A stretch of 64,000 nucleotides of DNA, from assembly GCA_948144175.1 (NCBI GenBank), contig CANXME010002467.1, forward strand, positions 62,001 to 126,000, in the 5' to 3' direction. The notes below the pieces were generated by a model. It searched no databases. It was not told the DNA's origin and saw nothing but the letters and a program-made list of their open reading frames with translations. This document shows, piece by piece, positions 32,408 to 60,437 of this stretch. The position numbers were made by a program, and so were the translations under genes. The first letter of the stretch is position 1, and each line of letters begins with the position of its first letter. This stretch comes from Closterium sp. NIES-65. Its lineage: Eukaryota > Streptophyta > Zygnematophyceae > Desmidiales > Closteriaceae.

Positions 32408-35400
32408 TCACTTCTCCCCTCGCCTCCGCCGCTTCTTCTCCACCTTCTTCAACCGCTTGCTCACCGCCTCAACAGCCGCTGTGAACCCCACTGGCGCCAG
32501 CGGCGGCGCCACAGCCGCCTTGGCAGCCTCCTCGTCCTGCTTCAACCTCACAATCTCCTGCACGATCTGCTGGTCTGGTGGTGCTATCCGTGACTCCACC
32601 CCCCGGAACACGAAATACGGCAGCACTGCCATCACTGGTAGCAGCAGCAGGCCGGTGAGCCAGTAGAGCGCGCTCGGGGCGAGCACCTCGGAGAAAATGT
32701 AGTAGTAATCCGTGGACCAATCTGGGCCGAAATACGAGTACACCCCGAGAAAGAGGTACCAGACACCGATGCTACCCCAGATGAAGAGATGCGTGATCCA
32801 CGTCCAGTGCTCCGTTATTAGCGCGATCTGGAAATTCACTGCCACCACCACGCCCGTCATGAGAGTCGCACTGAGCCCGTTCATTTCAAAGAGCTTTCCG
32901 GAGGGGAGGGACGCCTGGGGCAGCACGGCGGCAAGGCAGGACCAGAAGAGGAGGACGGACTGGGCGAAGCCGTAGAAGATCCACATGGCGATGGTGGTCC
33001 AGTGGAAGAACACGTTCTTGGGTCCCTGCTGGTACAGGGCAGGGAACTGCAGGTTGGGAGGGACCGAGGGGAGGGGGTACACAGGTGGAAGTGGAGGGGC
33101 ATGTGAGTGTGAGTGCGACAGGCAGCACAAGGGCGAGGCAGGTCCAGAATAGCAGCACCGACTGGGAGAAGCTGTAGAAGATCCACATGGCGATGGTGGT
33201 CCAGTGGAAAAACACGTTCTTGGGTCCCTGCTGGTACAGCGCTGGGAACTGGCAGGGGGAGGGGGGAGTTGGGCGGAGGGGGACGTGGAGGACATGTGGG
33301 TGTGCGAGTGCGACGGGCAGCACAAGGGTGAGGCAGGTCCAGAAGGAGAGCACGGACTGGGCGAAGCCGTAGCCAATCCACATGGCAATGGTGGTCCAGC
33401 CGAAGAACACGCTCTTGGGATTCTGCTGGTACAGGGCAGGGAACTGGCGGGGGAAGGGGGGCACGCAGGAGGAAGTGGAGGGAAATGCAGGGCGTGAGTG
33501 TGACAGGCAGCATGGAGGCGATGAGAGAGTGAATGTGAGGCGACTCACACCTCACCATGAGCACCTGTTCGACCCACATGGCCCCACACAGCTCCACCCC
33601 GCCCCATACCGCCCCACACAGCTCCACCCCGCCCCATACCGCCCCACACAGCTCCACCCCGCCCCATACCGCCCCACACAGCCTTCACTCACCATGAGCA
33701 GCTGTTTGTCGGAGAGGTCCTGCTCCAGCACACCGTAGCCGATGACGGGCAGCGAGGTGAAGAAGACGTTGTAGAGCGAGCACGCCCAGCTGTTGTACAC
33801 GATCTGCCCGGAAAACACCGCGTACGCGTTGTAATAGAAGATGGTGAGGCCGAACGCCACGTTCTTGTAGAAAAAGTATGTGACCTGCAGGGGAGTGAGG
33901 ATGGGAGATATGGGGAGATGGGAGGCGAGGTGGGCTAACTGAGTGCACACTACAATGGGAGCAGGGAGTGCGAAAGCAGGCCGCGTTGCAGTAGAATATG
34001 GTCCGGCCGAAGGCCACTTTCCTGTAGAAGACAAAGGTGACCTGCAGTGTGGTGAGCAGAGATGGGGGAAATGGGGACGAGGAAAACGGGGAGATGGGGG
34101 TGATGAGACGAGGAGCTGCACTAGTTGAGTGCACTAAGAGAGCAGGGAGTGCAGAACAAGCTTGCGATGTCGAGCTTATTGAGATTCTGAAATTGTCATA
34201 TAAAGGACAGGAAAGCGGATGCACTCATAAACGATGAAGAATGCGGAAGGGCGGTGGGTAGCAAGGGACATGGCACGAATGGTAGGGGGCGCTGAGAAGG
34301 AGGGTGGAGGAGGAGGAGCAACGGATTCAGAAAGTGTCAAAAGAGGGTGGAGGGTATGAGGGGGAGCGGGGAAGGGCAGGGCGGCAAGGCAGGGCAGGGC
34401 ACTCACGGCGTTGGCGATGCGCTTGTAACTCCAGTGGCCGTGCACGAGCAACAGTCGCTCCAGGTACTTGAACTGTGCTATGGCAAAGTCACTCGCCATC
34501 ACCGCCTGCCATGGGGGGGAGGGGGAGGGGAGGGTGGCGGGGGGTTTGTGAGGGGGCAGGAGAGTGGGGAGAGGGCAGGGAGGAAGGGCAAGTACGAGCA
34601 GCAGTCGCTCCAGGTACTTGAACTGTGCTATTGCAAAGTCCCTCGCAATCACCGCCTGCCAGAGGGAGAGATGAGCGGGAGTAGGTGGCGTGAAGAGGGG
34701 AGGGTGGTTGAGTGATTGGGGAGGAGGAGCAGAGGCGCGGTTGCAGATGTGGGTTGGGGGAACGGGCCATGGCAGTGCGGAACTATGGATGCTCGCCCTC
34801 TCTCTCACCTGCTTGCTTTCTCTTGCACCCTCTCTCTCATGTGTTGCACCCTCTCTCTCACGTGTTGCCCCTCCCTCTCACCTGCTGTCCCTCAACGCCG
34901 CTGATGCCAACACCAATGTCCGCCTCATGAATCATGCCCACATCGTTCGCCCCATCCCCAATGCCCAGTGTCGTGCGTCCCGTACCGTCCTTCACCAGCC
35001 GCGTCACCTGCACACCATGGCATGGCGTGAAGTAGCACCACATGGCATGAGATGGTGTGGCGTGGCATCGCGTGGCATGGCACGGCATGGCATGATATGG
35101 CAAGCCATGGCATGATATGGCAAGCCATGGCATGATATGGCGAGGTGGTATGACATGGCCCGAGTGAAGCAAAATGGAATGGTTTGACACATGGGGGATG
35201 AACCTGGCACGGGAGCATGGCATCAGCTTCTATCTCTGCACCACCTCTCCGTCCTCCCACCACTCGCCTCCTGCTTGTGCTTCCCATGCAAACCCCCCCT
35301 CCTCACCAGTGCCTTTCGCTTGGGCGACACGCGGCAGCACACGACAGATGCACACTGCATGGCGAGCCCCCGCAGTGCCGTCCTCAGTTCCGGCTCCAAT

Positions 35401-38400
35401 GCAAGCACCCATGCTGACCCCTCCTGCCCCTCCTCCCCCTATTTACTCACCAGAGCTTTCTGTTTGGGCGACACGCGGCAGCACACCATGGACGCACACT
35501 GCATGGCCAGCGCCAGCATCTCCCCCACCCACCCACCCACCCCACAACCAACCCCCTTACTCACCAGCACCAACACCCACCCACCTCCCTTGTGTGCTCA
35601 CCAGTGCCTTCTGTTTAGGCGAGACACGGCAGCACACCACACAGGCACACTGCATGGTAAGTGCCAGCAGCGCCGCCCTCAGCAGAGACTTGCCGTCTAT
35701 CACCAGCGCAAACACCCACTCTCCCCCTTTGTGTGCTTACTTACCAGTGCCTTTTGCTTGGGCGACACTCGGCAGCACACCACGGAGGCACACTGCATGG
35801 CGAGCGCCAGCAGCGCCGCCCTCAACTCCGGCTCCAACGCAAACGCCAGAGACTTGCTGTCTATCACCAGCGCAAACACCCACTCTCCCCCTTTGTGTGT
35901 TTACTTACCAGTGCCTTCTGCTTGGGCGACACTCGGCAGCACACCACGGACGCGCACTGCATAGCGAGCGCCAGCAGCGCCGCCCTCAACTCCGGCTCCA
36001 ACGCAAACGCCAGCGATTTGCCGTCTATCACCAGCGCAAACACCCGCGCCGGCCCCTCTCCCTCATCGTCACCATCCCCGTCACCCTCTCCCCCGTCGCC
36101 ATTGCCATTGCTGATAGAGTCCCCACCATTGGCATTCCCCCCTACAGCAGGAGCGCCCCCTTCTCGGGCACGGTCGATGAGAGCAGCGCCGTCATGTAAC
36201 AGACGCTTCACCCTGTCCCTGCACACCTGCGAAAGGAGAAAGGGTCCGGGAAGGGGGCACGGGGTAGGGAAAAAGAAAGAGGGAATGGGGAAGGGAAAAC
36301 GGGGAAGCGGAGGCGAGGCACGGCAAGGGTGGGGTGGGGTGGGGTGTATAAGCGAGCGCAGGTGCCTCAGCACCATTGCTTCCTATCCTCCACTCCACTC
36401 ACGAGTGAAACCTGGATGGGAGAGGAAGGCATGAGACTGAGATGAGAACATATGCATTTTCACCATATTAGACACAACTGAACTACACCACTACACCAGA
36501 AGCACTGCACCTTTCCCTTTCCACACTCCCAATGATCAACGGCCACGAATGTGCCCTTGCACGTGGCACAGGACATTGACCTGGCCTCTGTCCTGGCGTG
36601 CTCCAGTGTAACGAGTCATCAGCACATTCAGCACAGGAAAGGCACAGGCAGAGCCACAGGCACACATCTGGACAGCACAGCAGGTAAACTTGAAGCTACC
36701 TGTGCTACACACAGCAGGAAGCTTTTCTTTGCCTCCAGCGTGATGTGTGATCCGCACAGCACAGCGCAGTCACAGCACAGAACAACACAGCACAGCACCG
36801 CACAGCACAGCACAGCACAGAACAACACAGCACAGAACCGCACAGCACAGCACAGCACAGCACAGCACAGAACAGCACAGCACCGCACGGCACAGCACAG
36901 CACAGCACAGCACAGCAGTGAACATCACCACATGCTACTCACAGCAGCGAGTTTTTCCTTGTCCCCAGTGTCCTCGAGCTTGCGAATGTCAGGCGAGTCG
37001 AGCGACACCACGATCTGCTTCATGTCGTCCCGCAGCAACGAGCACGCGAAGCTGATAACAGGGGGGATTACAGGGGAGGGATGAGCGGGGGAGAATGGGG
37101 GAGGTAAGGTAGGGTGGAGAGAATGTAGGGTGAGTGGAGCGACACCACAATCTGTTTCTTGTCGTCCTGCAGCAACGAGCATGCGAAACTGCAAAACGAG
37201 GAAGACATGTGACGTGGGATTGGGGAGTGGGGAGTAGGGGAAAAGTCCCCTTTCATCTCCCTGCTACCCGTTTCAACACCCAACTACCCGTTTCATGTCC
37301 CTGCTACCCGTTTCATCTCTCTGCTACCCGTTTCATCTCCCTGCTACCAGTGTCATCTCACCCGATGTTGATGGCCGTCTCCAGCTTGTCTCCTGTGAGC
37401 ACCCAGATCTTGATGCCCGCCTGTGCCAGCCGGTCTATTGCCTCCGGTACCTGCGGGCAGGGGGGAAAGGGGGCGGGGGGGGGGAGCAAGGGGGAGAACA
37501 GGGGTGACAGCGGGAGAGGAGGGGGGAGCAAGAGGTGAGCACCCAGATCTTGATGCCTGCCTGTGTCAGCCGGTCAATTGCCTCCCGTACCTGAGGAGGG
37601 GAATGTGAGAAGAGAACACCCAGATCTCAAGGGTGCAGGGTGCGAGGTAAGTAAGATGGGGGGCGAGTAAGGGGGGGAATGAACAGAGCAGACTGGGGGA
37701 TGAGCAGAGTGGTGGGGGAGCAGGCCGAGGGGGTGGGGGAAAGGGGGGAAGGGACGAACAAGGGGGACGAGCAGGGTGCGAGGGGGAGGGATGAGGGGCA
37801 CAAGGTGGCTTGAGGGGAGCGACGCTCCTGTGAGTAGTAAGTACCTCTGCTGACTCAGGGGTGGAAGCAGATTCTGTGATATGTGCATCCCCGTGTCCGT
37901 GTTCATGTGTTGGTCACCCGAAGAGTGGTGATGTCACTGGTGGGGTCGGCGATTGAAAAGAGTCACGTGCCATACCGCGACTCAATTCTTACCCACCTCC
38001 TTAAGGTGAGCGCCCTTGCCGTGAGAATTGACGGCGCCCTAAACCTCCCTTTACCGACCTGCTTCTGTGTGCTTCTTGGTCAACTTCCTTCTCCCTTCCC
38101 ACCCACACCCTTCCCAACCCCACCCAACTCACCCCTTGCTGAAGCTTATCCTCCACAGCAGTGGCCCCCAGGAGCGTCAGCCCCTGTTCAATCTCCTCCG
38201 CAGCAGCATCCACCAGCGCCTCCCTCTCCGCACTCAGACTCCTCCGCGCCCCTTCAAACCGCTCCAGCCACTCCCCGCACTCCTCCTCACTCAACTCCCT
38301 GTACGCCAGCGCCAGCGTCCGCAGCCCTGCCTCGCCGTACCGGTGCAGCGTGGCCCGGGTAGCTTCCAAATGCTGCCGCCCGGTGGGCGCTAGGCGCTCG

Positions 38401-41329
38401 TATATGACGGAGTCGGCGCCCTTGGTCATGAGGAGGATGCGGTTGGAGGGGTCTCGGACCACCACTGACATGCGCTTACGCGTGGAGTTGAACTCTATCA
38501 GTGCCAGGATCGTGTACTCCCTGTTAGATGTGAATGGGTACAACAATCCGCAATGAGCGGTCACTGCCAGGATCACATATTCTCTCCCAGTCGCATGAGG
38601 GGGAAGGATGATGAGGAGAGGGATGATGAGGAGAGGGATGATGAGGAGAGGGATGATGAGGAGAGGGATGATGAGGAGAGGGATGATGAGGAGAGGGATG
38701 ATGAGGAGAGGGATGATGAGGAGAGGGATGATGAGGGGAGGATGATGAGGGGAAGGATGATGAGGAGAGGGATGATGAGGGGAAGGATGATGAGGAGAGG
38801 GATGATGAGGGGAAGGATGATGAGGAGAGGGATGATGAGGGGAAGGATGATGAGGAGAGGGATGATGAGAGGAGGGATGATGAGGGGAGAGATGATGAGG
38901 GGAGGGATGACTCCCCTCCTCACCCGTCCACGTTGCTTTTTCCCTTCTCACCCCTGCACGCTGCTCCACCCCCCCTCACCTGTCAACAGTGTTCTGCCCT
39001 GTCTCGTCCGGCTCGCGCACCCAAACGGTCGTCTGCGTGCGCTTGAAGAACGCCACGCCCATCTGCCGCGCCGCCTCCACGAACGCCGCCTCGTCCGGCG
39101 ACTCCGCCTCGTACTCCACCTGCCCGGAAGCTTCGTCCACCTCGGGAATGACGGTGTGGCACACGGCCAGCACGCGCAGGAACGCGCGGATCTCCTCGCG
39201 GTGCGGCTCGCGCAGCCACGCGCCGTCCAGGAGCCTATTATCCCGCAGCGCGAACCCCTTAACCCCCGGCTTCGCCGTCCCGTTCGCCGCCGCCTCCGCC
39301 GCGACGCGCTCCTCCTCCTCGTCGTAATCCTCCAGCTCGCTCAGATCGCGCCCGAGCCGCCGCGCCGTGGCGCGCTCGACCTCGGTAATCCCGCGGCCGT
39401 ACGCGACGCCGGCAATGGAGCACTTGAGGAAATCCATCTGGTTACACGTCAGCGTGCCCGTTTTGTCGCTTAGCACCGTATCCACTTGCCCTAGCTCCTC
39501 GTTCAAATTACTCGTGCGCGCGCGCGCCGGCATGTCCGTTTCCGCGAAGTACATCCCGCGATCAGCGCTAATGAACCACGCCTGGAAGATCTTAACGATC
39601 TCGATCGACACGTATAGCGAAATAGGGATGAGGTAACCGTACAGGATGATCGCCGTCAGGCACTGCAGCACGGACGACGTGGCGGGTTTCGCGGGGTCGT
39701 AGTACGCGTCAGTATCGGTCGGCGCGAGGTACCACCAGGACGGCATCTGATTCTTGGTGCGTATGCCGAAAATGATACTCCCCACGATCGCCATCAGCAG
39801 CAGGCAGGCGAAGAGGAAGTAGATGATCTTATCCATGCGCCGTTCGATCGAGCTGCGCTTCGACGGCGCCGTGGTCGAGTTCATCATGACTTTGCTGTCG
39901 TGGCCGGTAAAAATAACCACCCCCACCACCCACGCCGTGTTGCGCAGCTTCGAGTCGCGCAGCAGCACCTGCGCCGCGGTCAGCGACGTCGCCTCGCCGT
40001 CCCACTCTAGATTCCCTACAAACGTGTACAAACTCGGGTTCGGGTCCTCGCACTTAATCTCCGCCGTGAATTTCGCCAGCACCTCGGGGTCCTCGAGCGG
40101 CAGCGTGCGCTCGAGCGCCTTACGCAGTTTAAGATTCGTCTCGCCGTCCAGATTCATTGTTTCGACGTAGCACACGCCGTCCGGGTAGCTGGAGGCGAGC
40201 ATTAGGAGGTCGGCGGGGAAGAACTCGTCCTTGAGCACTTTAACTACGTCGCCCACGCGCACCGCCTTCCACTCGCACGGCTCGAACCGCCCCTCGCCCA
40301 CATGGCGCAGAACCTTGCGCTTGTTCACCTCGTCGTCCTGGCGGACGGGGAAGGGGAAGGGGAAGGGGAAGGGGAAGGGGGAAGGGGAAGGGGAAGGGGG
40401 AAGGGGAAGGGGGAAGGGGAATGGGTAAAGAGGCGTGTGAGGGGCCTCAAAAGTCGCCCCTCCACGTGGCGCAGCACCTTGCGCTTGTTCACCTCGTCGA
40501 CCTGGCGGACGTGGAGGGGGAAGGGGGAGGGGGAAAAAGAGAGGGGTGAGTGAGGGGTGAAGGGGGAGGGGGAGAGAAGGGGGAATTGAGGGATGGGTGG
40601 GGTAAAGTACTAGGGGGAAGTGGGAAGAAAAGGGTTACGGGGGAGGGGTGGGGTGGCTGGAGGACGAGGGTTGGGAGGAGGAACGGCGTGGGAGCTTGTG
40701 GAAAGACGGGAGAAGAGGGGAAGGGGGAGGGGCGAGGGGGGGGAAGGTGAGGTTACAAGAGGGGAAAGAGGGAGCTTGATTGCGTTGCGTCGGAAAGACC
40801 GTTAGCCCAACAACCATTTCACCCTCCATTCTGGTTCCAACCGCTCCTCGAACCCCCTAGCTCATTGCGATGTTCCTGAAAGACATCCGTTACAATCACA
40901 TCCGTGACTGTGACCAGAACTCACGGCAAGATATCGGCGCCAGTCTTCGATGGCCTCTTTGATCATGCTCACGCCCACCACCAGCACGAGCGGCGCGATC
41001 AGACTGTACGGCGCGTACGGCGTTAACGGCGTGAGCGCGAGGATGGCGCAGAGCAGGAAGTAGAGATTGGCGACGCGGCGGAACTGCTCAAATAGCGCCT
41101 TGGGGAGGAAGGACAGTATCGAGTATTTAGTGGTGGAAATTGAGTTGTTACAATAACGAAGCGGACTGCCTTTCTCCACGTGGTGATGCGGCTCGTTGCA
41201 GTACACGTGGCGCTGAAAGCCCTTCTCTCCGACCAGCTCGCTCTCGTCTGCGCGGGGCCGGATGCACCCCGCGTATGAGAGGAGCCGCGAGAGGCGCACG
41301 CGCGACTTGGATTTAGACGTCGACGACAT
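32408..41329 (-). CDS. P4-type ATPase, phospholipid flippase (ALA family)
   Basis: It flips phospholipids to the cytosolic leaflet, normally with a Cdc50/ALIS partner. Ten exons join in frame with GT-AG introns: 41329-40925, 40337-38980, 38520-38133, 37450-37362, 37051-36943, 36226-35909, 35007-34882, 34505-34407, 33884-33693, 33046-32408, giving 1240 aa, the usual length. Motifs in order: first membrane pair near residues 85-125, LDGET (about 198), the phosphorylated DKTGTLT (about 427), [11 protein letters not shown] in the nucleotide-binding domain, LTGDK (about 736), [10 protein letters not shown] (about 880), GDGAND (906-911), and the C-terminal membrane helices starting at [16 protein letters not shown] to EGEGP (exon 6) is an acidic Gly/Asn insert. 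The closest plant group by motif is ALA4-12. Every exon except the first has partial copies of its edges in a neighbouring intron, so other spliced forms are possible. Confidence 0.92.
33120..33447 (-). repeat. Two extra copies of the start of flippase exon 10
   Basis: Copies at about 33250-33120 and 33447-33310 each begin with the CAG acceptor and encode FPALYQQxPKxVFFxWTTIAMW, like the true exon at 33046. Each lacks the downstream membrane segments. The copies differ from one another by several substitutions, so they are not recent. They could be used as alternative acceptors or be harmless. Confidence 0.85.
33586..33685. repeat. 30-bp tandem repeat, 3 copies
   Basis: The unit CACAGCTCCACCCCGCCCCA plus about 10 bases is repeated next to the flippase exon 9 donor. 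A partial copy of the exon 9 end (CACCATGAGCACCTGTT) lies at 33553-33569. Confidence 0.8.
33985..34661 (-). repeat. Partial copies of flippase exons 9 and 8
   Basis: A copy at about 34047-33985 repeats the acceptor and first 60 bases of exon 9 ([17 protein letters not shown]). A copy at about 34661-34597 repeats the acceptor and first 55 bases of exon 8 ([19 protein letters not shown]). Both stop before the exon's own donor, so neither can replace the exon by normal splicing. Confidence 0.85.
35030..35145. repeat. CATGGCATG-type short tandem repeats
   Basis: The stretch is built of CATGGCATGATATGGCAAGC (20 bp, about 3 copies) and shorter GGCATGGC variants, within flippase intron 6. Confidence 0.8.
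35305..35881 (-). repeat. Four extra copies of the end of flippase exon 6
   Basis: Blocks at about 35881-35743, 35717-35600, 35520-35448 and 35410-35305 each repeat the last part of exon 6 ([18 protein letters not shown]), some with the preceding [15 protein letters not shown]. The first two carry a GTAAGT or GTGAGC-like donor at the same place. The copies sit between exon 6 and exon 7 in the same orientation. Confidence 0.88.
36690..36915. repeat. CACAG microsatellite and degenerate exon 5 copy
   Basis: CACAG/CACAGCACAG units run from about 36765 to 36915. Immediately left, 36695-36740 resembles the 3' end of flippase exon 5 (LEAKKSFLL for [11 protein letters not shown]). Confidence 0.7.
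37133..37632 (-). repeat. Partial copies of flippase exons 5 and 4
   Basis: A block at about 37190-37133 repeats the start of exon 5 ([17 protein letters not shown]). A block at 37593-37535 repeats exon 4 ([18 protein letters not shown]) with its acceptor but lacks [12 protein letters not shown] fragment AACACCCAGATCT at 37614-37626 is a second piece of exon 4. Confidence 0.82.
38556..38920. repeat. 15-bp minisatellite and copy of the exon 3 start
   Basis: GATGATGAGGAGAGG units (about 20) fill 38605-38915. On the transcribed strand this is a pyrimidine-rich tract in front of flippase exon 3. A copy of the exon 3 start (GREYVILAV, 38590-38560) lies between the tract and the exon. Confidence 0.82.
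40345..40512. repeat. GGGGAA repeats and copy of the exon 2 start
   Basis: GGGGAA/GGGGGAA units (40345-40426) abut the flippase exon 2 acceptor as a pyrimidine tract on the minus strand. A copy of the exon 2 start with its acceptor ([13 protein letters not shown]) lies at about 40510-40454. Confidence 0.82.
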
Positions 41330-47805: not shown

Positions 47806-48419
47806 CCCCGTATTGACGAGGCGCGACGGGAGGAGCGCGACGGAAAGGGCCCGCGGTGGTGGGGGGGGCAACCTAAGCGCGACGAGAGGGAGGGCCCGCG
47901 GGGACCTTTCTACGCGCGACGAGAGGGGCCCGCGAGAGGGCTTCCTAAGCGCGACGGGATGCGCGAGGCGACGGGCGGCCTTAGGGGCGACGGGCGGCCT
48001 AGGCGCTACGGGCTGCACGGGGCTACGGGCGGCCTAGGCGCTACGGGCTGCACGGGGCTACGGGCGGCCTAGGCGTGACTGGCAGCGGGGGCGACGGGCT
48101 AACGGGGCCGCGAGGCGCCGAGGCTAGCGGGATCGACGGGCTAACTGGGCAGCGGGGCTAACTCTTGAAATTCGATCAAGGGAAACGTTGAATGCAAAGT
48201 ACGGTACATCAACAGGCGTCTAACGATGCAAACCAATTTATTATGAATAAATTCTGCCAGCTGTAGCTGTAGCGAGAACGTTCCACACAAACCATTTGGT
48301 TGTGGGGAATTCGCAATCCGGTCAATACGAGGTAGCGGCGGCTAGACGTCGCGGCTCGCAACGCAACCCTGCCAGCAGACTGCACGCGACGCGTCATCTT
48401 CAGCGTCGCCACGAGCGCC
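47806..48419. promoter_or_regulatory. Divergent promoter interval between MiaA and LD-carboxypeptidase
   Basis: The two genes start back to back, 614 bases apart by the chosen starts. The left half (47880-48130) is made of GGGCTACGGGCGGCCTAGGC-type repeats. The right half (48170-48340) is AT-richer and more promoter-like. No clear TATA box for either gene is evident. Confidence 0.5.
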
Positions 48420-51400
48420 ATGCCAAACCGTACCAGCGCGCCGTCTCGTCCCGCCCCGCCGCCGGCAATGAGGGCGGGCGACCGCGTGAGCATCGTGGCG
48501 CCCGCCGGGGCCGTGGACGCGCGACTGCTGCGACAAGGCTGCGACGTGCTGGCGTCGTGGTGAGGCACGCACCCTCCCTTCCGTGCGTCGTGGTGAGGCA
48601 CGCACCCTCCCTTCCGTGCGTAGTAATGACGTACACACGCGCTCGCTCGTGCGTTGTGACGTACACACGCGCTCGCTCGTGCGTTGTGACGTACACACGC
48701 GCTCGCTCGTGCGTTGTGACGTACTCACGCGCGAGAGTGGTGACGAGACGCGCACGGTTCATGTGTGCTGAGGCACACGCACGCACACACCTGCTGTCAC
48801 TGCCGCCGCACTGCCGCTCGCACGTGCCGTGAGCTGGGCGATCATATGAATGAGTGAGTGAGGGAGTAGCTGGGAATGCAAACCCGAGCTCATACACATG
48901 CTTTTGACTCGACTCAAAAACCGAGCTCATACACATCGTGACTGCCGCTGCTCACTTGCGAGGTGTCCCCACGCGCTGTCACGCCATTGGGCCTCCCTCC
49001 CCCTTTTGAGAATTCTCACAAGTAATTTCAGCACAGGGCCTCCCCTTTCCATCGTTCTGCCCTCCCCTCCCCCTCGTTCTGCCCTCCCCTCCCCCTCGTT
49101 CTGCCCTCCCCTCCCCCTCGTTCTGCCCTCCCCTCCCCCTCGTTCTGCCCTCCCCGCTCTTCTTGAGCTCGGCAGGGGGCTCGTGCCGGTCGTGCATCCG
49201 CAAGTCGCACTGCGCCAAGCCTACCTCGCAGGCTCGGACCAAGCCAGAGCCGCAGGTCTGGTGGAGGCGTTTCTGGACCCCTCCACGCGCGCAGTGGTGT
49301 GCGCCCGGGGCGGGTATGGCTGTGCGCGCCTGCTGCCCCTGCTGGAGCGCGCGCTTAGGGGGGAGGGGCAGGGGGAGGGGGGAGGGGAGGCGGAGGGGAA
49401 GGGGGAACGAGAATGGGAGTGCGGAGGCTGGGAGTGCGGGGAGAGGGAGGCGGAATTGGAGAGAGGCGCGGAGGCAGTGTTGGGGGAAGGAGGAGCAGCG
49501 ATTGAGGGCAGGACGGATGAGGACAGGGGGCATCACGCCAAGGGAAATGAGCGGGTGGAGTGTGGGGGCACTGGGGGTGAGGGCAAGGGGGATCAAGGAA
49601 AGGCGAATGAGGGCGAGGGTGAGGCAGGCGGATGGGCGCAGAGGGTTGATGGGTGGGCGGAGTGTGTGGCGGAGGAGGGGGGTAGTAGGGGGACGGTGAT
49701 GGGGGGAGGAGAGGATGGAGGGGAGGGGCGTGCAGAGGTACGGGAGGGCGTGGGGACAGCGAGTGAAAGGGCAGCAGGAGGCGATGGTGGGTGCAGAGGT
49801 GCAGATAGATCAACTGGTTGCAGTGCTGATGTGGCACGATGCTCTACTGCTGACGTGGCGCAAGGCAGCAGCAGGCGCTCGTGTCTTGCTACACAGATCC
49901 GCCGCAAGCGATTCTTCGGCTTCAGTGATGTCACGGCGCTGCACAGGTGGGCGCAATGGTGCAAGTGTGTGGTTCCTGCCCTGTTCAACCAGCACGTGCG
50001 TGCACAAGCCATGCTCGTGTCTTTCAACCTGCCTGCCGATTCAGCCATGCTTTTGCTTTTGCTTTTGCACAAGGCCCGAGGCACCGAACCAATGCCCCCT
50101 CGAGACTTTCAGCTGTGAACCCACATGTCTGCATGTGCAAACTACCATCACGCATACCATCTCTGCTCAATCCCTCCTCCCCACCCCTCCTCTTATTGGT
50201 ATCTCCTTTACTCTTCTCTCCACTTGTTCGCTTGGTCTCTTTCCCCTTTTTCCCCCCATGTTAGTTTCTTCCAGGCGGAGCTAGCAGAGCCAATCATCTC
50301 CTTCCACGCGCCCATGCCAGCCACATCATTCTTCACCGACCAATCAGCAACCGCCAGCAGAGCAGCCCTCCGTGCCGCCCTCTTCGAACCCTCGCTCACT
50401 CTCGCCTGCCCCCCGCTTCAGGTGATGGTCAGGTGCCCTCTAGGTAAATGTCCGGTGCTTTTCGGGTTATCGTCACTTCATTGCCCTCCCTGCCACCTCT
50501 CTCCCCCTTCCCTCGCGCCTTGCTCCCTGCTGTAATTCCTGTCAGCTTTTGGGCTCTTGACGCATCCCCTTGCATACCCTTCAATTCTCCGCTCTCCTTC
50601 TGTTTCACCCCGCCTTTCCCCCTATATTTCCTCCGCCAACCCCCTTCATCCACCACCGGCCCGCTGCCTCCGGAGGGGCTGCTACTGAGGCGCCTAATGG
50701 AGCAATGTTCCCCTCCCCTTTGCTCCCCTTCGCCCCTCAATATCCTCCGTCCCCACCCCGCCTCTCTTCCCCACGCCTTCCCCCCTCCGCCTTCCCCTCC
50801 CCGCCTTCCCCTCTCCGCCTTTCCCCCTCCGCCTTCCCCTCTCCGCCTTCCCTTCTCCGCCTTTCCCTCTCCGCCTTCCCCTCTCCACCTTTCCCCCTCC
50901 GCCTTCCCCTCTCCGTCTTCCCCTCTCCGCCTTTCCCCCTCCGCCTTCCCCTCTCCGCCTCCCCTCTCCGCCTTTCCCCCTCCGCCTTCCCCTCTCCACC
51001 TTCCCCTCTCCGCCTTCCCCCTCCTCCTTCCCCCTCTCCGCCTTTCCCCTCCACCTTCCCCCTCCGCCTTCCCCTCTCCGCCTCCCCCCTCCGCCTTCCC
51101 CTTCCGCCTTTCCCCCTCCGCCTTCCCCTCTCCACCTTCCCCTCTCCGCCTTCCCCCTCCACCTTTCCCCCTCCGCCTTCCCCTCTCCGCCTTCCCCCTC
51201 CGCCTTCCCCCTCCGCCTTTCGCCCTCCGCCTTCCCCTCTCCACCTTCCCCCTCCGCCTTCCCCCTCCGCCTTTCCCCCTCCGCCTTCCCCTCTCTGCCT
51301 TCCCCTCTCCACCTTCCCCCTCCGCCTTCCCCTCTCCGCCTTCCCCCTCCGCCTTCCCCCCTCCACCTTCCCCCTCCGCCTTCCCCTCTCCGCCTCCCCC

Positions 51401-53924
51401 CTCCGCCTTCCCCTTCCGCCTTTCCCCCTCCGCCTTCCCCTCTCCACCTTCCCCTCTCCGCCTTCCCCCTCCACCTTTCCCCCTCCGCCTTCCCCTCTCC
51501 GCCTTCCCCCTCCGCCTTCCCCTCTCCGCCTTCCCCTCTCCGCCTTCCCCCTCCGCCTTCCCCCTCCGCCTTTCCCCCTCCGCCTTCCCCTCTCCGCCTT
51601 CCCCCTCCGCCTTCCCCTCTCCACCTTCCCCCTCCGCCTTCCCCTCTCCACCTTCCCCCTCCACCTTCCCCTCTCCACCTTCCCCCTCCGCCTTCCCCTC
51701 TCCGCCTTCCCCTCTCCGCCTTCCCCCTCCGCCTTCCCCCTCCGCCTTTCCCCCTCCGCCTTCCCCTCTCCGCCTTCCCCCTCCGCCTTCCCCTCTCCAC
51801 CTTCCCCCTCCGCCTTCCCCTCTCCACCTTCCCCCTCCACCTTCCCCTCTCCACCTTCCCCCCATCCATCGCAGGGCCGCTGCCTCCAGAGGGGCTGGCT
51901 GGCCAATCCCTCCTCTTGCTGCCGCCCAAACCGAGTGCAAGGGCGGCTGCTGGGCGGCAATCTGTCTGTTCTGGCGTCGCTGGTGGGGTCCAAATGGGTA
52001 GCGGGGCGGCGAGACACGTGCCGTTGCTGCTGCAGCAGCGGTGGTGGGGGTGCGGAGGACAGTGATGGCGCGGGGGGCAGTGATGGTTTGATTCTGATGC
52101 TGGAAGATGGTGAGAGTCGAGGCGTGTGTGGTGAGAGTCGAGGCGTGTGTGGTGAGAGTCGAGGCGTGTGTGGTGAGAGTCGAGGCGTGTGTGGTGAGAG
52201 TCGAGGCGTGTGTGGTGAGAGTCGAGGCGTGTGTGGTGAGAGTCGAGGCGTGTGTGGTGAGAGTCGAGGCGTGTGTGGTGAGAGTCGAGGCGTGTGTGGT
52301 GAGAGTCGAGGCGTGTGTGGTGAGAGTCGAGGCGTGTGTGGTGAGAGTCGAGGCGTGTGTGGTGAGAGTCGAGGCGTGTGTGGTGAGAGTCGAGGCGTGT
52401 GTGGTGAGAGTCGAGGCGTGTGTGGTGAGAGTCGAGGCGTGTGTGGTGAGAGTCGAGGCGTGTGTGGTGAGAGTCGAGGCGTGTGTGGTGAGAGTCGAGG
52501 CGTGTGTGGTGAGAGTCGAGGCGTGTGTGGTGAGAGTCGAGGCGTGTGTGGTGAGAGTCGAGGCGTGTGTGGTGAGAGTCGAGGCGTGTGTGGTGAGAGT
52601 CGAGGCGTGTGTGGTGTGATACTATGCGACCTGATGCAAGCGAGGCAGGCATGCATGCGGTGGGATGGGATGGAGTGGGATGGGATGGGGTGACATGTTC
52701 ATGATCCGCTAGGAATGGTGCGACTTCTGACCTCGCTTGGCTCGTCCTATGCAATGCCTTCTTGCCGGATTCAATCGAACGTTATGCTCTTCCTGCCATG
52801 TAACCTTGCACCACGCCCCCTTTTGCTGCATCTGTAGCCTAGCCACTGCCATGCCTCCGTAGTCCCAGTCACATTCCTCAAATCTTCCCATCCCGCCTCC
52901 TCATTCTCCCTGCTGCCCGTGCTGCCTGTGCCATGTGGCAGTGGGGGAGGAGGAGTACCGGGGGGATCGCATGCTGCACCAGACCAGCTGCTGTGCAACC
53001 TTGAACCACCCTCCCCGCTCATCAAGCGCCTTTCTCGTCTCTTCCCATCTCCGTGTCTCTGTGCTGCCCATGCCATGTGGCAGTGGGGGAGGAAGAGTAC
53101 CGGGTGGATCGCATGCTGCACCAGCTGCTGCCCTCTCTGCTGCCCTCGCTGCTCCCCCCCGCCCCTCCTCCCTGCCATGCTAGGGGATGCGCCCACTCAC
53201 ATGCTGCTGCCGCCCATTCTGCTGCCGCCCATTCTGCTGCCGCTGATGCTGCTGCCCATACTGCCACCCATGCGCCATGGAAGGACCTGGGCTCCTACCA
53301 TCATGCCCATGCGCCATGGAAGGACCTGGGCTCCTACCATCATGCCCATGCGCCATGGAAGGACCTGGGCTCCTACCATCATGCCCATGCGTGTTGCCCC
53401 GGCAGGGGGCACGGCACACAGGGCCATGTGACGGCCCTGTCAGGGCTGGTTCTGGGAACCTTCTCCAATTTCCAGGGCATGAGTGACGAGGCACGAGGTA
53501 TGCACGGGGTGTATCGGGTGCACGGGGTGTATCGGGTGCATGGGATGCTTTTGAGTCCAAGGCATGGGCCGCTGTGGCAGCTGCTCTTGACGCGCCCCAC
53601 AGTACTGCCTGCACCCTTCCCTCTGCACCACTGCCCTGCTTGGACAGTCATTCATTCCAAATGTTCCTTCTGTCATCCACAGCCGTTCATCTTACCTCTC
53701 ACTCCCCATTCCATCCACCGCACACAGAGAGTGTTCGACCAATCGTGGAGGAGCAGTACGGAGGCGACTGGGACAAGTGGTTCTGGCTGGGACAGGTGTC
53801 GCTCCCTCATTGGCTGCCGGTGCTGGCGGGGCTTCCCATTGGCCACACGAGTGACAACAGAGTGGCTCCTATTGGTGCTCTCGTGGAGCTTGATGTTGAA
53901 ACCGCAACGCTCACTGCACTGTGA
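48420..53924 (+). CDS. LD-carboxypeptidase-like protein (peptidase family S66)
   Basis: In bacteria this family trims the terminal D-Ala from murein tetrapeptides; streptophyte algae and mosses keep a plastid peptidoglycan pathway, so a plastid role is plausible. Six exons join in frame: 48420-48559, 49176-49946, 50265-50421, 51875-52109, 53084-53497, 53728-53924, giving 637 aa (bacterial forms about 300). Motifs: GDRVSIVAPAG near the start, AYLAGSD, ARGGYGCARLLPLLE (about 90-104), GFSDVTALH (about 295-303), SFHAPMP, LLGGNLSVLASLVGS (about 381), LEDVGEEEYRVDRML (catalytic-type Glu), ALSGLVLGTF and GLPIGHTSDNRV (catalytic-type His near 612). Extra length comes from a 170-aa Gly/Glu insert and a His/Ala insert with three 13-residue repeats. 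The exon 3 acceptor (50264) was chosen because the next AG gives a stop. The first 40 residues could be a short transit peptide, but this is weak. Confidence 0.87.
48545..48735. repeat. Copies of the LD-carboxypeptidase exon 1 donor
   Basis: GCGTCGTGGTGAGGCACGCA plus 13 bases occurs twice in full and once in part (48552-48625), including the real junction TCGTG/GTGAGG. It is followed by three 30-bp units GTGACGTACACACGCGCTCG. Confidence 0.88.
49050..49155. repeat. 22-bp pyrimidine repeat before exon 2 of LD-carboxypeptidase
   Basis: CTCCCCTCCCCCTCGTTCTG units, five copies, lie 20 bases from the acceptor and form its pyrimidine tract. Confidence 0.88.
50640..51868. repeat. Giant pyrimidine minisatellite in LD-carboxypeptidase intron 3
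   Basis: From about 50765 to 51865 the intron consists of CCGCCTTCCCCCT and CCGCCTTCCCCTCT units and ACCTTCC variants, about 80 in all with higher-order repeats, ending at the exon 4 acceptor. At 50655-50690 a copy of the exon 4 start (CCGCTGCCTCCGGAGGGGCT) marks the left end. The very long reading frames through it on both strands are due to the absence of stop codons in the repeat. Confidence 0.93.
52110..52615. repeat. 24-copy, 21-bp minisatellite starting at the exon 4 donor
   Basis: GTGAGAGTCGAGGCGTGTGTG is repeated 24 times without visible change. The first unit is the real 5' splice site of LD-carboxypeptidase exon 4 (GATG/GTGAGA at 52109/52110). Each following unit keeps TG/GTGAGA. 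There are no spacers of differing sequence. Confidence 0.95.
52943..53010 (+). repeat. Extra copy of the LD-carboxypeptidase exon 5 start
   Basis: The block repeats the acceptor context (GCCATGTGGCAG) and VGEEEYRGDRMLHQ, then diverges. It is upstream of the true exon at 53084 and has no donor. Confidence 0.85.
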
Positions 53925-54088
53925 TATTATATTCGATTTGATACGATTCAAGACAACAGAGTGGCTGCCATTGGTGCTCTCGTGGAGCTGGACGTTGAAA
54001 CCGCAACGCTCACTGCGCTGTAGCTTCCAGCCAACGCATGCAGTGAATGCGCTGGTTCTCAGAGCATGTAGCCTGTAGTGTAACCACA

Positions 54089-54124
<36 letters not shown>

Positions 54125-54657
54125 ACATCACTTATTCTGAAAGTTAAGTTGCTAACTAGCCCTAGCACCTCAACTCCAGCTGAAGTATTTTGTTACGAGA
54201 TATTGCTGCTGATAATAACGAGTACCGCTCCAGAGAGGATTTCCTTTGCCGGCGCTGCCGTCAATCTGCTCCTGTCGCAATTCCTCGCCTCGCTCGCTCC
54301 TCTCACTGGGTCACGTCAATAACAGCTCCACCGCACTACACCACCTTCACCGCCCTCCCCCGACCCCCCGCCACTGCCCCCCCGCGCACCACCCCATCAC
54401 TGCGCCCGCCACTTCTGCGCCTGCCTCTTCTTCGCGACCGTTCTCGCCTCTCCCGCCCCGCGCTTCACCCAATTACCGCGCCCTCCAGTCCTGATTGTGC
54501 GCTAATTCGCGCGGCGTTCTCTCCCCCCTGCGCTGCGCGGTTCCCGCCGCCACCTCGCCGCCGCCGGCTTCCGCCGACTTCCGCCGGCTGAGAGGCGCAA
54601 GAACTAGTAACCGCCTGCCAACAGTCGCGGGGAAACCGCCGCCAGCGCCGCGGCGCA
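53925..54657. other. 3' region of LD-carboxypeptidase and promoter of the ATG22-like gene
   Basis: Bases 53952-54023 repeat the last 72 bases of LD-carboxypeptidase exon 6 including a stop (TAG for TGA). An (AT)n run of about 16 units lies at 54090-54122. Bases 54130-54657 are 5' flanking sequence of the next gene, becoming very C-rich from 54330; no TATA box is obvious. Confidence 0.7.
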
Positions 54658-57600
54658 ATGACGGGGGGCTTCGCGCCGATGGAGATCGACGGGGAGAGCT
54701 CGCGCGCGGCGCCCGCGGGGAAGCGCGAGGTGTGGGCGTGGTACGGGTACGACGCGGCGGTGGCGGGATTCTACTCCGCCGCGCTGCCCATCTTCTTCCC
54801 CCTGCTCCTCGTCGCGCTCGCGTCGGAATACGCGTGGCAGCACGCGGCGTCGCCGCAGCCGCCCGCGTGCAGCGCGGACGTGACGAGCGATTGCCTGCAG
54901 TGCGTGCCGGGGAAGGGCACGCAGCTGCAGACCTCGGCGGGGTGAGGAATGAGGCGAGGGGGGAAGAGGTAGGTGGGGGGGGGTTGAGGGTACTCGGGGG
55001 AGCAAGTGAACGCGCGCGAGTTGGTTCGCGCGCGACTCAGGAGGTTTGGCTGAGCGGACGTGACGAGAGAGTGCCTGCAGTGCGTGCCGGGGAAAGGCAC
55101 GCTGTGGAAAGGACACTGGGATTGGCCTCTGGTCTGGCGCCGGAAGGGCTACAAGCTGAGTGCTTGGGAGGCGTGGGCGCGCTCACCCGCTATGCAAACA
55201 TGCTCTTTTAGCCCAGTTGGTTAGCGAACTTGACACACGCAACTGCAGACGTCCGCGGGGGAAGGGGGAGGGGGAATTGGGGGAGGATGTACCTGGGAAT
55301 TGCGCCCAGCAGCGGCGGCGCCCACCCCCACCCCGCAAGGACACGGAGGCGAAGAAAAATATAATTCCCACAATGCGGTGTCAGACTCTTTTCAGAACGG
55401 ATCCTCTTTAACCCACCTCCCTCACTCCCCCCATCCCCCCCTCTGCCCCCCTTCCCCCCTTCTCCTTCCTGCCCCCCTCCCTTCCTGCTCCCCCAGGTAC
55501 ACTGCGGTCCCCATTCCCGGCATCCTGGTGGCGGGCAGCGGCAACGTGAACCCGGTCCCGTGAAAGAGTTTCCTGCCGGTGACTGCAAACTTTCAACACG
55601 AGTCATTTTGCACCTCGCCACCCCCCATCCAGGTACACGGAGGCCCCCATGCCGGGTATCCCAGTGGCAGGCGGGGGCAGCATCAACCCGGTGTCGTTCG
55701 CGACGGCCATGCTGGGCGTGTCCGTGCTCTTTGAGGTCGCTGCGTTTGTCACTGTTGGGCCCCTTGCTGACTTTGGCCGTGGGCGCAAGCAGGTACATAG
55801 ATGCCTCCGTGATGGGGGAGAGAGCGAATCGCAACGGCCATGCTGGGCGTGTCCTTTGTCACTGTCAGCCCGCTTGCTGACTTTGGCCGTGGGGGGAAAA
55901 TGGGTAGGGGGGGCGAAGGGGGGGAGGAGTGCGGGGGGAGAGGGAATGGGGAAAAGGGGGAAACAGGTGGGGGGTGGGGTGGGAGGAGTGAGCGGAGAGA
56001 GGGATTGGGAGCGGGAAGGGGTACATGGGAAGGTGGAAGAAGGAAGAAGGGGTTAGGAGGGAAGTGGAAGAAGGGGTTAGGAGGGAAGTGGAAGAAGGGG
56101 TTAGGAGGGAAGTGGAAGAAGGGGTTAGGAGGGAAGTGGAAGAAGGGGTTAGGAGGGAAGTGGAAGAAGGGGTTAGGAGGGAAGTGGAAGAAGGGGTTAG
56201 GAGGGAAGTGGAAGAAGGGGTTAGGAGGGAAGTGGAAGAAGGGGTTAGGAGGGAAGTGGAAGAAGGGGTTAGGAGGGAAGTGGAAGAAGGGGTTAGGAGG
56301 GAAGTGGAAGAAGGGTTTAGGAGGGAAGTGGAAGAAGGGTTTAGGAGGGAAGTGGAAGAAGGGGTTAGGAGGGAAGTGGAAGAAGGGGTTAGGAGGGAAG
56401 TGGAAGAAGGGGTTAGGAGGGAAGTGGAAGAAGGGATGGCCATGCCATGCCATGCCATGCCATGCCATGCCATGCCATGTGTATTGTCTCAAAGTGTAAC
56501 AATCACTGGACTGTCAACCCGGCAGCACATGTGCTCCTGCACGTGTCGCTGCTGCAGCCTCTCACCTCCTCTCTTGCGCCTCTCACGTCCTCTCTTGCGC
56601 CTCTCATTCCTTTTCAACGCCTTCCCCCATCACTCGCCTGCCCCTCCCTCCCCCCTCCCCCATACAGCTACTGCAGGTACGCACGTACATGGGAGCAGCG
56701 GCGTGTTTGCTCTTAAGTGGCTTCCAAGCTTATACATTTAAAACTCATCTCCTCTCTCCCCCTCCCCCTCCTACTCCCCGTAACAGCTACTGCAAGTGGG
56801 CACGTACATGGGAGCAGTGGCGTGTGTGCTCTGCCTCGTCCTCGCCTCGCCGGCCCTGTGGTGGCTCGCCGCCGTGCTGCTTGTCATCGCCAACATTGGC
56901 TACGGCATCGCCACCGTTGCTTACTACAGGTGACCACAGCCCCGCCACTGCTACAGGTGACCACAGCCCCGCCACTGCTACCTATGTGGTTGTGCCAACA
57001 GATTGTGCCAGAGTTACACTCTCGCACCTCCTACCTTCAGCTCTTCAGCCCTGGCCCCACTCCAGCTCAGCCACCTGGCAGTGCTGGTAAACACGTTTTC
57101 CAGCGTGGCAGAGCAACTGCCAGACACGCATCACAATCACTCACCCAGAGAACCCCGTACTCCCACTTCAATTCCCCCCCATTTCCCCCCCCCCCTCCTC
57201 CCCCACCCCCAGTCTACTTGGCAAAGCTGGCGAACGCATCCCCCGAGGTGCAGCTAGCAGAAAATGCACCGCCTGAGGCACCCCGTACACTCCCCTCCCT
57301 CTCCCCCCTCCCTCCCCAATCTACCTGGCAGTGCTGGTGACCGCTCCCCTGAGGTGCAGTGCAGGTGTAGCAGGCAGAGACGCATGGCCTGAGGCACCCA
57401 ATACCCTCCTACCCTCCCCCTCTCCGCCCCATGTACACGTAGACAGCTACAGACTGAGGCCGCGTTGCGTGCAGACTGAGGCACCCATACCTCCCCCACG
57501 CTCCCCCTCTTGTCCTCCCCACCCACCTCCCTCCCCCCAGCTACCTGGCAGTGCTGGTGGACGCGTCCCCCGAGGTGCAGCAGGCAGAGGCGGCGGGACT

Positions 57601-59753
57601 GCCGGTGCAGGCGGTGGTGGAGATGCGCGAGCAGGTGGGGCGGGGTACAGAGGGATTCTTAGGATTAATCCAAGGTGCCCAAGGAGCATGTGGGATGAGA
57701 TGAGGGCGCAGGTGCGGGTGGGTGGGATGAGACAGGTTGTCTTCAAATAGAGTCACACTTCTCATTTTTATCAAACGAGAGGGAACAGGCAACAGGCACC
57801 CGAAGTGCAGCAGGCAAAGGAGGCGGGGCTGCCAGTGCAGGCCGTGGTGGTGGAGATGCAAATGGGACACGGTGCAAATGGGTTCTTAGAATTCCGTTGA
57901 GCAGGTGGGTAGAAGGAGCATGTAGTTAGGGTGAGGGAGCAAGCATTTTGAAGCATCTCTGATTTCATATCCTCCCCCACCCCCTCTCCTCCCCATCACC
58001 ATTCACCTTCCATTCGATCACCACCCGTGCCTTGCCCAACCATTCCCGCCATGCCCAACTGTCCCCTCAATGCCCACCAACCCCCCATGCCCAATTCGCA
58101 CATGCCCCCAGCAGGTGGAGATGTGTGCCACAGCGGTTGCCTGTGCCAGTGCAGTGTCCATCGCCGTCACCCTCCTTGCAACTAACAGAGCATTTCGTGC
58201 CCCTGGCCCGTGCCCCACCATTCCCACCCTCACCAGGTAGAGAATCGCCTCTCCCTCACGGCAGTCGCCTGTGCCAGTGCCGCCTCCATCATCGTAACCC
58301 TCCTCGCCCTCGCCGCCACGCTCCCCACCTCCTCGCCTGCCCTCAAGCTGCGCCTCGCAGTGGCCCTCTGCGGCGCCTGGTGGATCCTCCTCGCGCTGCC
58401 CACCTTCGCCTTCCTCAAAGCCCGCCCCGGCCCCGCCCTCCCCCCGGGCTCGCCCCTGCGAGTCTTCTCCGGGTGGCGCCATCTCGGCGCCATTCTGGCC
58501 GAGGCGCGGCGGTACCGCAACGCGTTTGCGTTCCTGGTGTGCTACTTTGTGTACGCGGATGGCTACACCACCATCATGCAGGTGACTTTTGTGTCATGCA
58601 AATGCATTTTGTGTCAGTTCCTGTAGTCGACTCAAAACTCACCTTGTTTGCGTTCCTGGTGTGCTACTGTGTGTATGCGGACGGCTACACCATCATGCAG
58701 ATGACTTTTGTGTCATGCAGATGACTTTTGTGTCATGCAGATGACTTTTGTGTCATGCAGATGGCTTTTGTGTTGGTTCCTGTAGTCGACTCAAAACTCA
58801 CCTTGTTTGCGTTCCTGGTGTGCTACTGTGTGTATGCGGGCGGCTACACCACCATCATGCAGATCGGCGTGCTGTTTGGCCAGAGGGAGCTCTGCCTCTC
58901 CACGGGAGCTACTGTTCTGCTCGCCTGCTGCGTCTTCCTCTTCGCGCTCCTCGGCACGCCACTCGCCTTCTGGCTGCAGCGCGTGTCCGGGCTGCACAAT
59001 AAAGCCATGGTCTGCGTGCTTATAGCGGGGATGATTCCCCTCCCGCTCTGGGGCCTGCTCGGGTACCTGACACCGGACGGCGGTGTGGGGTTGAAGTCAG
59101 CGTGGGAGCTGTATGTGTTTGCGGGGTGGTTCGGGGTGCTGCTGGGGCCATTGTCGTCGTACTCGCGCACACTGTTCATTGATATGATCCCCGTGGGGAG
59201 AGAGGGCGCCTTCTTCTCACTCTACTCCGTCAGCGACAAGGGCTCCTCCTGGCTCGGGCCCTTCATTGTCGCTGTCATTGTACAGGTGGGATGCGGTGGA
59301 GTGCGGTGGGGGGGAATGGGAAGGGTTGTTTTGATGAGAGGGTTATGGGAGGAGGAAGGGAGAGGGTGCCTTCTTCTCGCTCCACTCTGTCAGAAACAAG
59401 GGCTCTCCCTGGCTCGGCCTGTTAATTGTTGCTATCATTGTGCAGCAACATACCATTCACGTCACATACCATGCCTCCCTCACATGCCACCCTGCCCTTA
59501 CAATCCCTTTCCTCCTTCCCTTTCTCCACTATCGTTCCAGGCCACGGGGGAGCTACGGGCGTCCTTCTTCTACATCCTGGCGGTAATGCTGCTGCCACTG
59601 ATCGCGCTAGTACTGGCGGTGGACCATGCACGCGGCATCACGGATGCAGGGCGCAGCAGCCGCAGCCGGGCGGGCGACACGGGCATCGCTCAGGACGACC
59701 AGCCCAATGTGGTGGGCGGCGTCGTGCCGTATACTGCCATGCGCGCTCACTGA
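54658..59753 (+). CDS. ATG22/UMF1-like major facilitator membrane transporter
   Basis: Members of this family export amino acids from the vacuole after autophagy in yeast; plant roles are little known. Seven exons join in frame: 54658-54941, 55633-55792, 56787-56929, 57541-57634, 58237-58581, 58863-59285, 59541-59753, giving 553 aa, close to the family length. The N-terminus has REVWAWYGYDAAVAGFYSAA, typical of the UMF1 start before helix 1. Helices follow in exons 2, 3, 5 and 6. Family marks are PLADFGRGRKQ, ADGYTTIMQ-IGVLFGQRELCL across the exon 5/6 junction, LWGLLGYL, ELYVFAGWFG, GPLSSYSRTLF and GREGAFFSLYSVSDKGSSWLGP. The C-terminus is a short hydrophilic tail. Edges of exons 1 to 6 recur in the introns. 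Confidence 0.9.
55050..55565 (+). repeat. Extra copies of ATG22-like exons 1 and 2
   Basis: Bases 55054-55105 repeat the exon 1 end (CLQCVPGKGT). Bases 55227-55250 repeat ACGCA-CTGCAGAC near its donor. Bases 55498-55562 repeat the exon 2 acceptor and start (YTAVPIPGILVAGSGNVNP), then hit a TGA. Confidence 0.87.
55826..56432. repeat. Copy of exon 2 end and 24-bp minisatellite in intron 2
   Basis: Bases 55828-55897 repeat the end of ATG22-like exon 2 with a 27-base deletion. From 56034 to 56432 GGGAAGTGGAAGAAGGGGTT plus AGGA is repeated about 16 times with two G/T variants. CATGC units follow to 56480. Confidence 0.92.
56655..56985 (+). repeat. Copies of both edges of ATG22-like exon 3
   Basis: Bases 56665-56716 repeat the acceptor and start of exon 3. 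At 56926-56980 the exon 3 donor context CTACAGGTGACCACAGCCCC plus 7 bases occurs twice in tandem. Confidence 0.85.
57060..57860 (+). repeat. Four or more copies of ATG22-like exon 4
   Basis: Blocks near 57064-57115, 57208-57262 and 57319-57400 repeat the exon 4 start (YLAVLVDASPEVQ), and 57790-57855 repeats its second half (QQAEAAGLPVQAVVEM). Only 57541-57634 has both splice sites and the correct phase. Confidence 0.85.
58105..58862 (+). repeat. Copies of both edges of ATG22-like exon 5
   Basis: Bases 58108-58190 repeat the exon start (AVACASAxSIxVTLLA). Bases 58640-58699 and 58797-58862 repeat its end (FAFLVCYCVYAxGYT). The last copy runs directly into exon 6 and supplies its AG acceptor. 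A 20-bp unit GATGACTTTTGTGTCATGCA (three copies, 58700-58760) lies between. Confidence 0.87.
59365..59447 (+). repeat. Copy of the ATG22-like exon 6 end
   Basis: It repeats the GAFFSLYSVSDKGSSWLG region and ends in the same GTGCAG context, with substitutions that break the protein. Confidence 0.85.
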
Positions 59754-60400: not shown

Positions 60401-60437
60401 TGGTATGAGAGCAGTCAGGACAAACTCCACTATCAAG

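Follow-up and report, generated by a model that had tools for sequence, protein, structure and literature searches.

Copies of exon edges in the introns of four Closterium genes and the probable part played by local tandem duplication

The introns of four genes in this stretch of DNA from the desmid alga Closterium hold partial copies of the exons that they adjoin, which raises the question of how the edges of exons come to be repeated beside the exons themselves. An earlier note, made from the sequence alone, had described such copies in the P4-ATPase, MiaA, LD-carboxypeptidase and ATG22-like genes, held that the copied unit was nearly always centred on a splice junction, and suggested that a local mechanism of duplication, with a link to splicing or transcription, might be responsible. 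Our analysis bears out the copies. It favours, with a probability of roughly 0.6, an account in which local tandem duplications arise often and pass through a filter of selection and splicing, and which explains most of the pattern.

The four genes and the copies in their introns

Throughout, the window is the whole stretch of DNA that was analysed (64,000 nucleotides). The genes were modelled as follows.

32408..41329, minus strand: P4-ATPase gene; 10 exons; 1240 aa model identical to P0001; Pfam PF16212, PF16209
41329-40925, 40337-38980, 38520-38133, 37450-37362, 37051-36943, minus strand: P4-ATPase exons 1-5
36226-35909, 35007-34882, 34505-34407, 33884-33693, 33046-32408, minus strand: P4-ATPase exons 6-10
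43012..47511, minus strand: MiaA (tRNA dimethylallyltransferase) gene; 6 exons; PF01715 on its own gene model
47511-46932, 46428-45737, 45463-45268, 44671-44307, 43710-43436, 43144-43012, minus strand: MiaA exons
48420..53924, plus strand: LD-carboxypeptidase (LDC) gene; 6 exons; P0121, P0122, P0124; PF02016, PF17676 on P0121
48420-48559, 49176-49946, 50265-50421, 51875-52109, 53084-53497, 53728-53924, plus strand: LDC exons
54658..59753, plus strand: ATG22-like gene; 7 exons; orthologues P0241, P0242; PF11700 on P0241
54658-54941, 55633-55792, 56787-56929, 57541-57634, 58237-58581, 58863-59285, 59541-59753, plus strand: ATG22-like exons

All 25 introns across the four models are bounded by GT and AG. 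The spliced P4-ATPase model and the annotated Closterium sp. NIES-64 protein P0001 are the same 1240 aa at 100% identity, a NIES-64 protein matches the LDC exons at 98-100%, and the ATG22-like model is 96% identical to its orthologue P0241; Pfam support for these three genes comes through the NIES-64 entries P0001 and P0121 and the orthologue P0241, respectively. The window from 1 to 32000 and from 60000 to 64000 consists mainly of retrotransposon ORFs of Ty1/copia and Ty3/gypsy type, with a hAT-like ORF near 60700-61940, all of them named from reading the ORFs. Direct local duplication is scarcer in the retrotransposon part, at 0.00-0.19 of probes per 4 kb, except at 12-16 kb (0.42).

Partial exon copies in the adjacent introns are real in all four genes. 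When a junction probe of 55 exon and 25 intron bases was searched in the adjacent intron, against a null of 200 shuffles within 30-nt blocks, the intron copy outscored every local shuffle at 31 of the 50 junctions (15/25 donors and 16/25 acceptors), by more than 6 score units at 24 of the 31 and by a smaller margin at 7. On closer examination of 19 selected junctions, 18 proved to carry copies that include at least 20 exon bases, 25 copies in all, P4 donor 5 being the sole junction of the 19 where no copy reached that length. These 18 are divided between P4-ATPase (7), ATG22 (9), MiaA (1) and LDC (1), so that 16 of them belong to two genes, and the claim that almost every junction carries a copy is overstated. 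The copies and arrays are listed below.

40455..40506, minus strand: copy of P4 exon 2 start and acceptor, offset 164
37542..37592, minus strand: copy of P4 exon 4 start and acceptor, offset ~138-140
37133..37191, minus strand: copy of P4 exon 5 start and acceptor, offset ~137-139
36703..36741, minus strand: weak copy of P4 exon 5 end and donor, 79% identity, 36 bits
35302..36045, minus strand: tandem array of P4 exon 6 end and donor, coding copy plus four copies, first unit 164
34594..34690, minus strand: copy of P4 exon 8 start and acceptor, offset ~151, common to Naga37s-1
33982..34077, minus strand: copy of P4 exon 9 start and acceptor, offset 161
33121..33512, minus strand: two copies of P4 exon 10 start and acceptor, units ~195-202
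44608..44932, minus strand: tandem array of MiaA exon 4 start and acceptor, units ~126-140 bp
45172..45269, minus strand: 25-bp array beginning at MiaA donor 3
44038..44312, minus strand: 20-bp array across MiaA donor 4, 13.6 copies
46495..46939, minus strand: 8-bp then 14-bp arrays beginning at MiaA donor 1
48552..48621, plus strand: 33-bp array across LDC donor 1
52108..52616, plus strand: 21-bp array beginning at LDC donor 4, 24 copies at 100%
52919..52981, plus strand: copy of LDC exon 5 start and acceptor, offset 142
53952..54021, plus strand: copy of LDC coding 3' end in the 3' flank, offset 99; spans the stop codon, junction-like without a splice site
55054..55102, plus strand: copy of ATG22 exon 1 end
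55495..55556, plus strand: copy of ATG22 exon 2 start and acceptor
55829..55893, plus strand: copy of ATG22 exon 2 end
55893..56009, plus strand: intron-only duplication in ATG22, the sole one of at least 45 bits, 55-bp offset
56638..56713, plus strand: copy of ATG22 exon 3 start and acceptor
56924..56981, plus strand: 27-bp array across ATG22 donor 3
57068..57359, plus strand: copies of ATG22 exon 4 start, two clear and one weak (36 bits)
57799..57893, plus strand: copy of ATG22 exon 4 end, AT in place of the donor GT
58129..58179, plus strand: copy of ATG22 exon 5 start
58646..58862, plus strand: two copies of ATG22 exon 5 end, the last adjoining exon 6, its ATGCAG being the model acceptor
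59360..59445, plus strand: copy of ATG22 exon 6 end

Several other descriptive claims of the earlier note also held. The copies lie in the same orientation as their parents, direct duplication reaching 0.49 of probes per 4 kb against 0.00-0.08 for inverted. Most retain the splice-site bases where these are aligned (AG in 12 of 12, GT in 6 of 8), the site falling outside the alignment at 11 of the 31 junctions. The opposite splice site is missing: among 43 pairs at offsets of 40-1500, with short-period arrays masked, there was no whole exon with both sites, nor any exon-exon duplicate. The copies also differ in age, since the identity of their exon parts to the parents spans 77-95% across the 25. 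At the outer ends of the four coding sequences, none of the starts beat all shuffles (0/4), and the stops are mixed, with a clear copy in LDC, a weak one in ATG22 (p 0.02 with the 80-base probe, the short probe beating all shuffles) and none at the P4-ATPase and MiaA coding 3' ends; the short-probe stop tests of MiaA and LDC were left out because the match was the probe itself.

Two further repeats were seen in the LDC gene. A 22-bp pyrimidine array of 5.3 copies lies upstream of exon 2 (window 49039-49155), and the Yama58-4 protein P0123 seems to hold a far longer pyrimidine array as annotated protein; the length of this array may differ between strains. Exon 5 contains an in-frame 39-bp coding minisatellite of 3.2 identical copies (window 53267-53391), and none was seen in the NIES-68 protein P0125.

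Tandem duplication and the reading-frame filter

The younger families are plainly tandem arrays, with adjoining units of 195 (3.0 copies), 164 (2.2), 143 (1.9) and 126 (2.6) bp. The aligned length is more than twice the offset at the P4-ATPase exon 6 end (D6), the P4-ATPase exon 10 start (A9) and the MiaA exon 4 start (A3), and covers at most 0.71 of the offset in the remaining exon-intron families; the older families would likewise have begun in tandem. The repeats fall into two size classes: the units of the short arrays do not exceed 39 bp, and in the long class neighbouring copies are mostly spaced 107-230 bp apart. Little lies between the two (55 bp once, and 99 bp at the LDC stop).

The distribution of these repeats bears the mark of the reading frame. 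Array periods are divisible by 3 in 13 of 14 exon arrays compared with 18 of 39 intron arrays (Fisher p 0.003), and the one exon array with another period overlaps the P4-ATPase stop codon. Duplicated probes make up 4-7% of those in exons more than 100 nt from a junction, 26% at 40-100 nt and 25-57% in introns. Where a junction is duplicated, the coding copy is the outermost one. For P4-ATPase and ATG22 this is judged from orthologous proteins, as it is in part for LDC; for MiaA it is judged only from the reading frame. Among the orthologues, P0003, P0241 and P0242 are without the exon-edge copies.

In the account that we prefer, local tandem duplication would be frequent in these genes, in units of the two size classes given above, and could originate by replication slippage or unequal exchange. 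Duplications within exons would be purged unless the frame was kept, as would units that contain a whole exon, and those within introns would be free. A unit crossing one junction would be almost without effect on fitness, since the exon stays intact, with a functional splice site, in the outermost copies; the copy on the inside would turn into intron and decay. Splicing would tolerate such copies, which are themselves presumably neutral, because the donor and acceptor nearest the exon bodies are used. As a partial exon can only enter an intron by a tandem unit that crosses the junction, the centring of copies on junctions would largely follow from geometry and selection. The copy of the LDC stop codon, in which no splice site is involved, fits the same combination of geometry and survival.

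Junctions, donors and the rival explanations

Whether duplication is centred on junctions depends on what is counted. By position, 45% of junction probes are duplicated against 38-57% in intron interiors (39% against 25-42% with short arrays masked), and the scan of the four genes gave no junction peak. By event, at a threshold of 45 bits or more, there are 18 junction families, 1 stop-codon family and 1 intron-only family. This count was collapsed by hand from 43 pairs by merging the repeated pairs of one array (including two intron-intron pairs), and leaves out the pairs below 45 bits (5 exon-intron, 7 intron-intron and 2 flank). Among the long units, 18 of the 19 splice or intron families thus cross a junction, compared with 39-45% expected from random placement with purging. 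Simulated intron-only pairs of like size and age were detected with a power of 0.56, and with this taken into account the expected junction share is 53%, at which 18/19 has a P of ~1e-4. A further loss of half of the intron-only pairs would bring P to 0.009, and of two thirds to 0.05; such loss is plausible, since a pair within an intron disappears with either of its copies, but the exon member of a junction pair is never lost. With the weaker intron-only pairs counted (18/24 at junctions), P lies between 0.0004 and 0.14.

The short arrays present a sharper asymmetry. Thirteen of the 39 intronic short arrays begin within -12..+10 of a donor, where 2.1 would be expected (p 5e-5; maximum of 10 in 20,000 placements), as do 6 of the 12 near-perfect ones (at least 95% match, period of at least 8; 0.77 expected), and this excess was robust in the stricter subsets tried. 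Arrays at acceptor ends are not enriched (4 vs 2.3 expected, p 0.20). Of the 25 donors, 7 are spanned by a short array, against none of the 25 acceptors (p 0.0096). At the 12 acceptors with copies of at least 20 exon bases, the distance to the nearest copy is 118-220 bp; at donors, the units measure either 8-33 bp or 122-230 bp. In splicing, the first AG after the branch point is preferred, and among donors the one closest to the exon is used. A second acceptor close by would then do harm and a second donor close by would not, which fits the asymmetry between the two ends. Whereas the long-unit excess at junctions fades once weak pairs are counted or intron-only pairs are lost faster, the donor-array excess does not, and duplication with survival alone leaves the donor-anchored arrays unexplained. 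Short homology within the donor motif, events at intron starts and selection for extra donors are all candidate explanations.

It is conceivable, if doubtful, that duplication is itself biased to junctions and above all to donors, through transcription or splicing (by way of R-loops or nicks, for example) or through donor-motif homology. The donor arrays and the 18 of 19 long units speak for such a bias; the flat positional scan, the unenriched acceptor ends, the copies at coding 3' ends where no splicing occurs and a sample of four genes speak against it. Of the mechanism first suggested, the local, direct duplication is well supported. The main pattern can be explained without a link to splicing, which has no part in the LDC stop-codon family, yet the donor-array and long-unit excesses go beyond simple survivorship, and splicing-linked duplication is possible. 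A stronger version is less probable again: a process aimed at junctions, above all at donors, would go on copying exon edges into introns; the spacing of the copies would record which sites the spliceosome is able to pass over (donors at any distance, acceptors only beyond ~100 bp), and now and then a new intron, perhaps ATG22 intron 5 among them, would result.

The decay of the copies bears on two further explanations. Mismatches between copies and parents number 40, 39 and 118 at codon positions 1, 2 and 3 (of ~587 each; pN/pS 0.27), and 34, 33 and 83 outside P4-ATPase exon 6, so the third-position excess, although strongest in the four-copy array of that exon (35302-36045; 6, 6 and 35 against the exon, 14, 18 and 50 between copies), is present elsewhere. 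As rates, these are 6.7% at positions 1-2 and 20% at third positions, with 13% in the intron parts; that positions 1-2 differ half as much as intron is what one would predict for an exon under constraint and an unconstrained copy. None of the 25 copies contains an in-frame stop codon (3.3 expected, P 0.023) and 3 are frameshifted. Third-position bias and the lack of stops together make the copies more coding-like than free decay predicts. This could mean that copies are retained as helpful extra splice sites or alternative exon edges, and the Naga37s-1 annotations P0002 and P0004 do read through some of them. Those entries are ambiguous, as they may be prediction errors, and retention is also at odds with the copy-free proteins P0003, P0241 and P0242, with offsets that are not multiples of 3 (164 at P4-ATPase D6), with the frameshifted copies and with copy-to-copy differences outside P4-ATPase exon 6 that have no clear codon bias (11, 11 and 14); we consider it improbable. 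Unequal exchange, between gene copies or haplotypes that had already diverged, is about as improbable; under it, the synonymous differences would have been present from birth. That explanation draws on the third-position excess and its peak in P4-ATPase exon 6, on the three P4-ATPase entries in Naga37s-1 and on the extensive copy number variation that PMC10407611 describes for the Closterium species complex, but it needs many separate events, and the aligned intron parts differ by just 13%.

Repeats are difficult to assemble, and the copies might on that ground be assembly errors. This is very improbable given that their exon parts differ from the parents by 5-23%, that the exon 8 copy recurs in a Naga37s-1 entry, and that the published NIES-64 assembly was built, according to PMC10407611, from PacBio reads with an N50 of 30 kb and linked reads. 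The Naga37s-1 entry, P0002, holds the NIES-64 exon 8 copy with its pyrimidine tract at 96% over 106 aa, including 219 intron nt, together with short parts of the P4-ATPase exon 4, 9 and 10 copies; in P0004 and P0005, from the same strain, the exon 5 end is repeated in copies peculiar to those entries (by eye). Some copies therefore predate the strain split and others have a separate origin. The internal-repeat scores of these three entries are 108-195, against 57 or less in 54 non-Closterium P4-ATPase homologues, which P0001 and P0003 resemble (42 and 43). The read-through entries may be annotation errors; either way the copy DNA exists.

Known systems and implications

Intron 5 of the ATG22-like gene (58582-58862) deserves separate mention. 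The end of exon 5 recurs twice within it, and the second of these copies adjoins exon 6 and provides, in its ATGCAG, the acceptor. It is the only one of 25 introns that ends in a copy of the upstream exon end, and none of the 25 opens with a copy of the exon start that follows it. Intron creation by tandem duplication was rejected as a general source, since only this one intron fits; intron 5 is possibly a case of intron gain by this route, or of a shifted acceptor.

Several known systems share some of these features. Intronic minisatellites are short-period, high-identity arrays in introns, as are the short arrays here, the difference being that 13 of our 39 begin at a donor. In the potato RdRp gene, a tandem duplication spans an intron-exon boundary (Ma, Lan and Niu 2016, PMC4974935), and the unit likewise comprises an intron end and an exon start with the splice signals duplicated too. 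There, a new intron arose between the copies and the duplicated exon sequence was retained, whereas in the Closterium models the whole of each inner copy lies in intron, and the pattern extends to 18 junctions in four genes. Introns may also be gained when an AGGT exon segment is duplicated in tandem (Rogers 1989 and Hellsten 2011, as cited in PMC4974935). ATG22 intron 5, with its upstream-exon-end copy used as acceptor, resembles this, but here that holds for one intron in 25, and none starts with a downstream exon copy. Polyubiquitin genes have repeat units bounded by dual-specific sites usable as both donor and acceptor (PMC10809524); the ATGCAG of ATG22 intron 5 similarly ends an exon in one copy and is an acceptor in another, although nothing here indicates that a single copy serves in both roles. 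The Tetrahymena LRR exon arrays were set aside as a parallel, being repeats of whole 90-bp exons and so a different thing (PMC6564038). A limited search of open-access literature returned no report of exon-edge copying in Closterium.

The pattern is true and unusually dense in these four genes, and the donor excess comes from a small sample. For annotators it carries a warning, as several public Closterium proteins appear to contain copied exon edges or repeat tracts by mistake: P0002, P0004, P0005, P0121 and P0123 all appear to include copied edges or pyrimidine tracts, and wrong splice-site choice in annotation is probably the source of both. The crossing of donors and never of acceptors by short arrays in this sample makes a direct genome-wide prediction. 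If the four genes are typical, this would be a genome in which at least a third of splice junctions carry duplicates of themselves, and it would offer a natural experiment on how the spliceosome chooses among near-identical sites, on the origins of introns and on shifts of splice sites.
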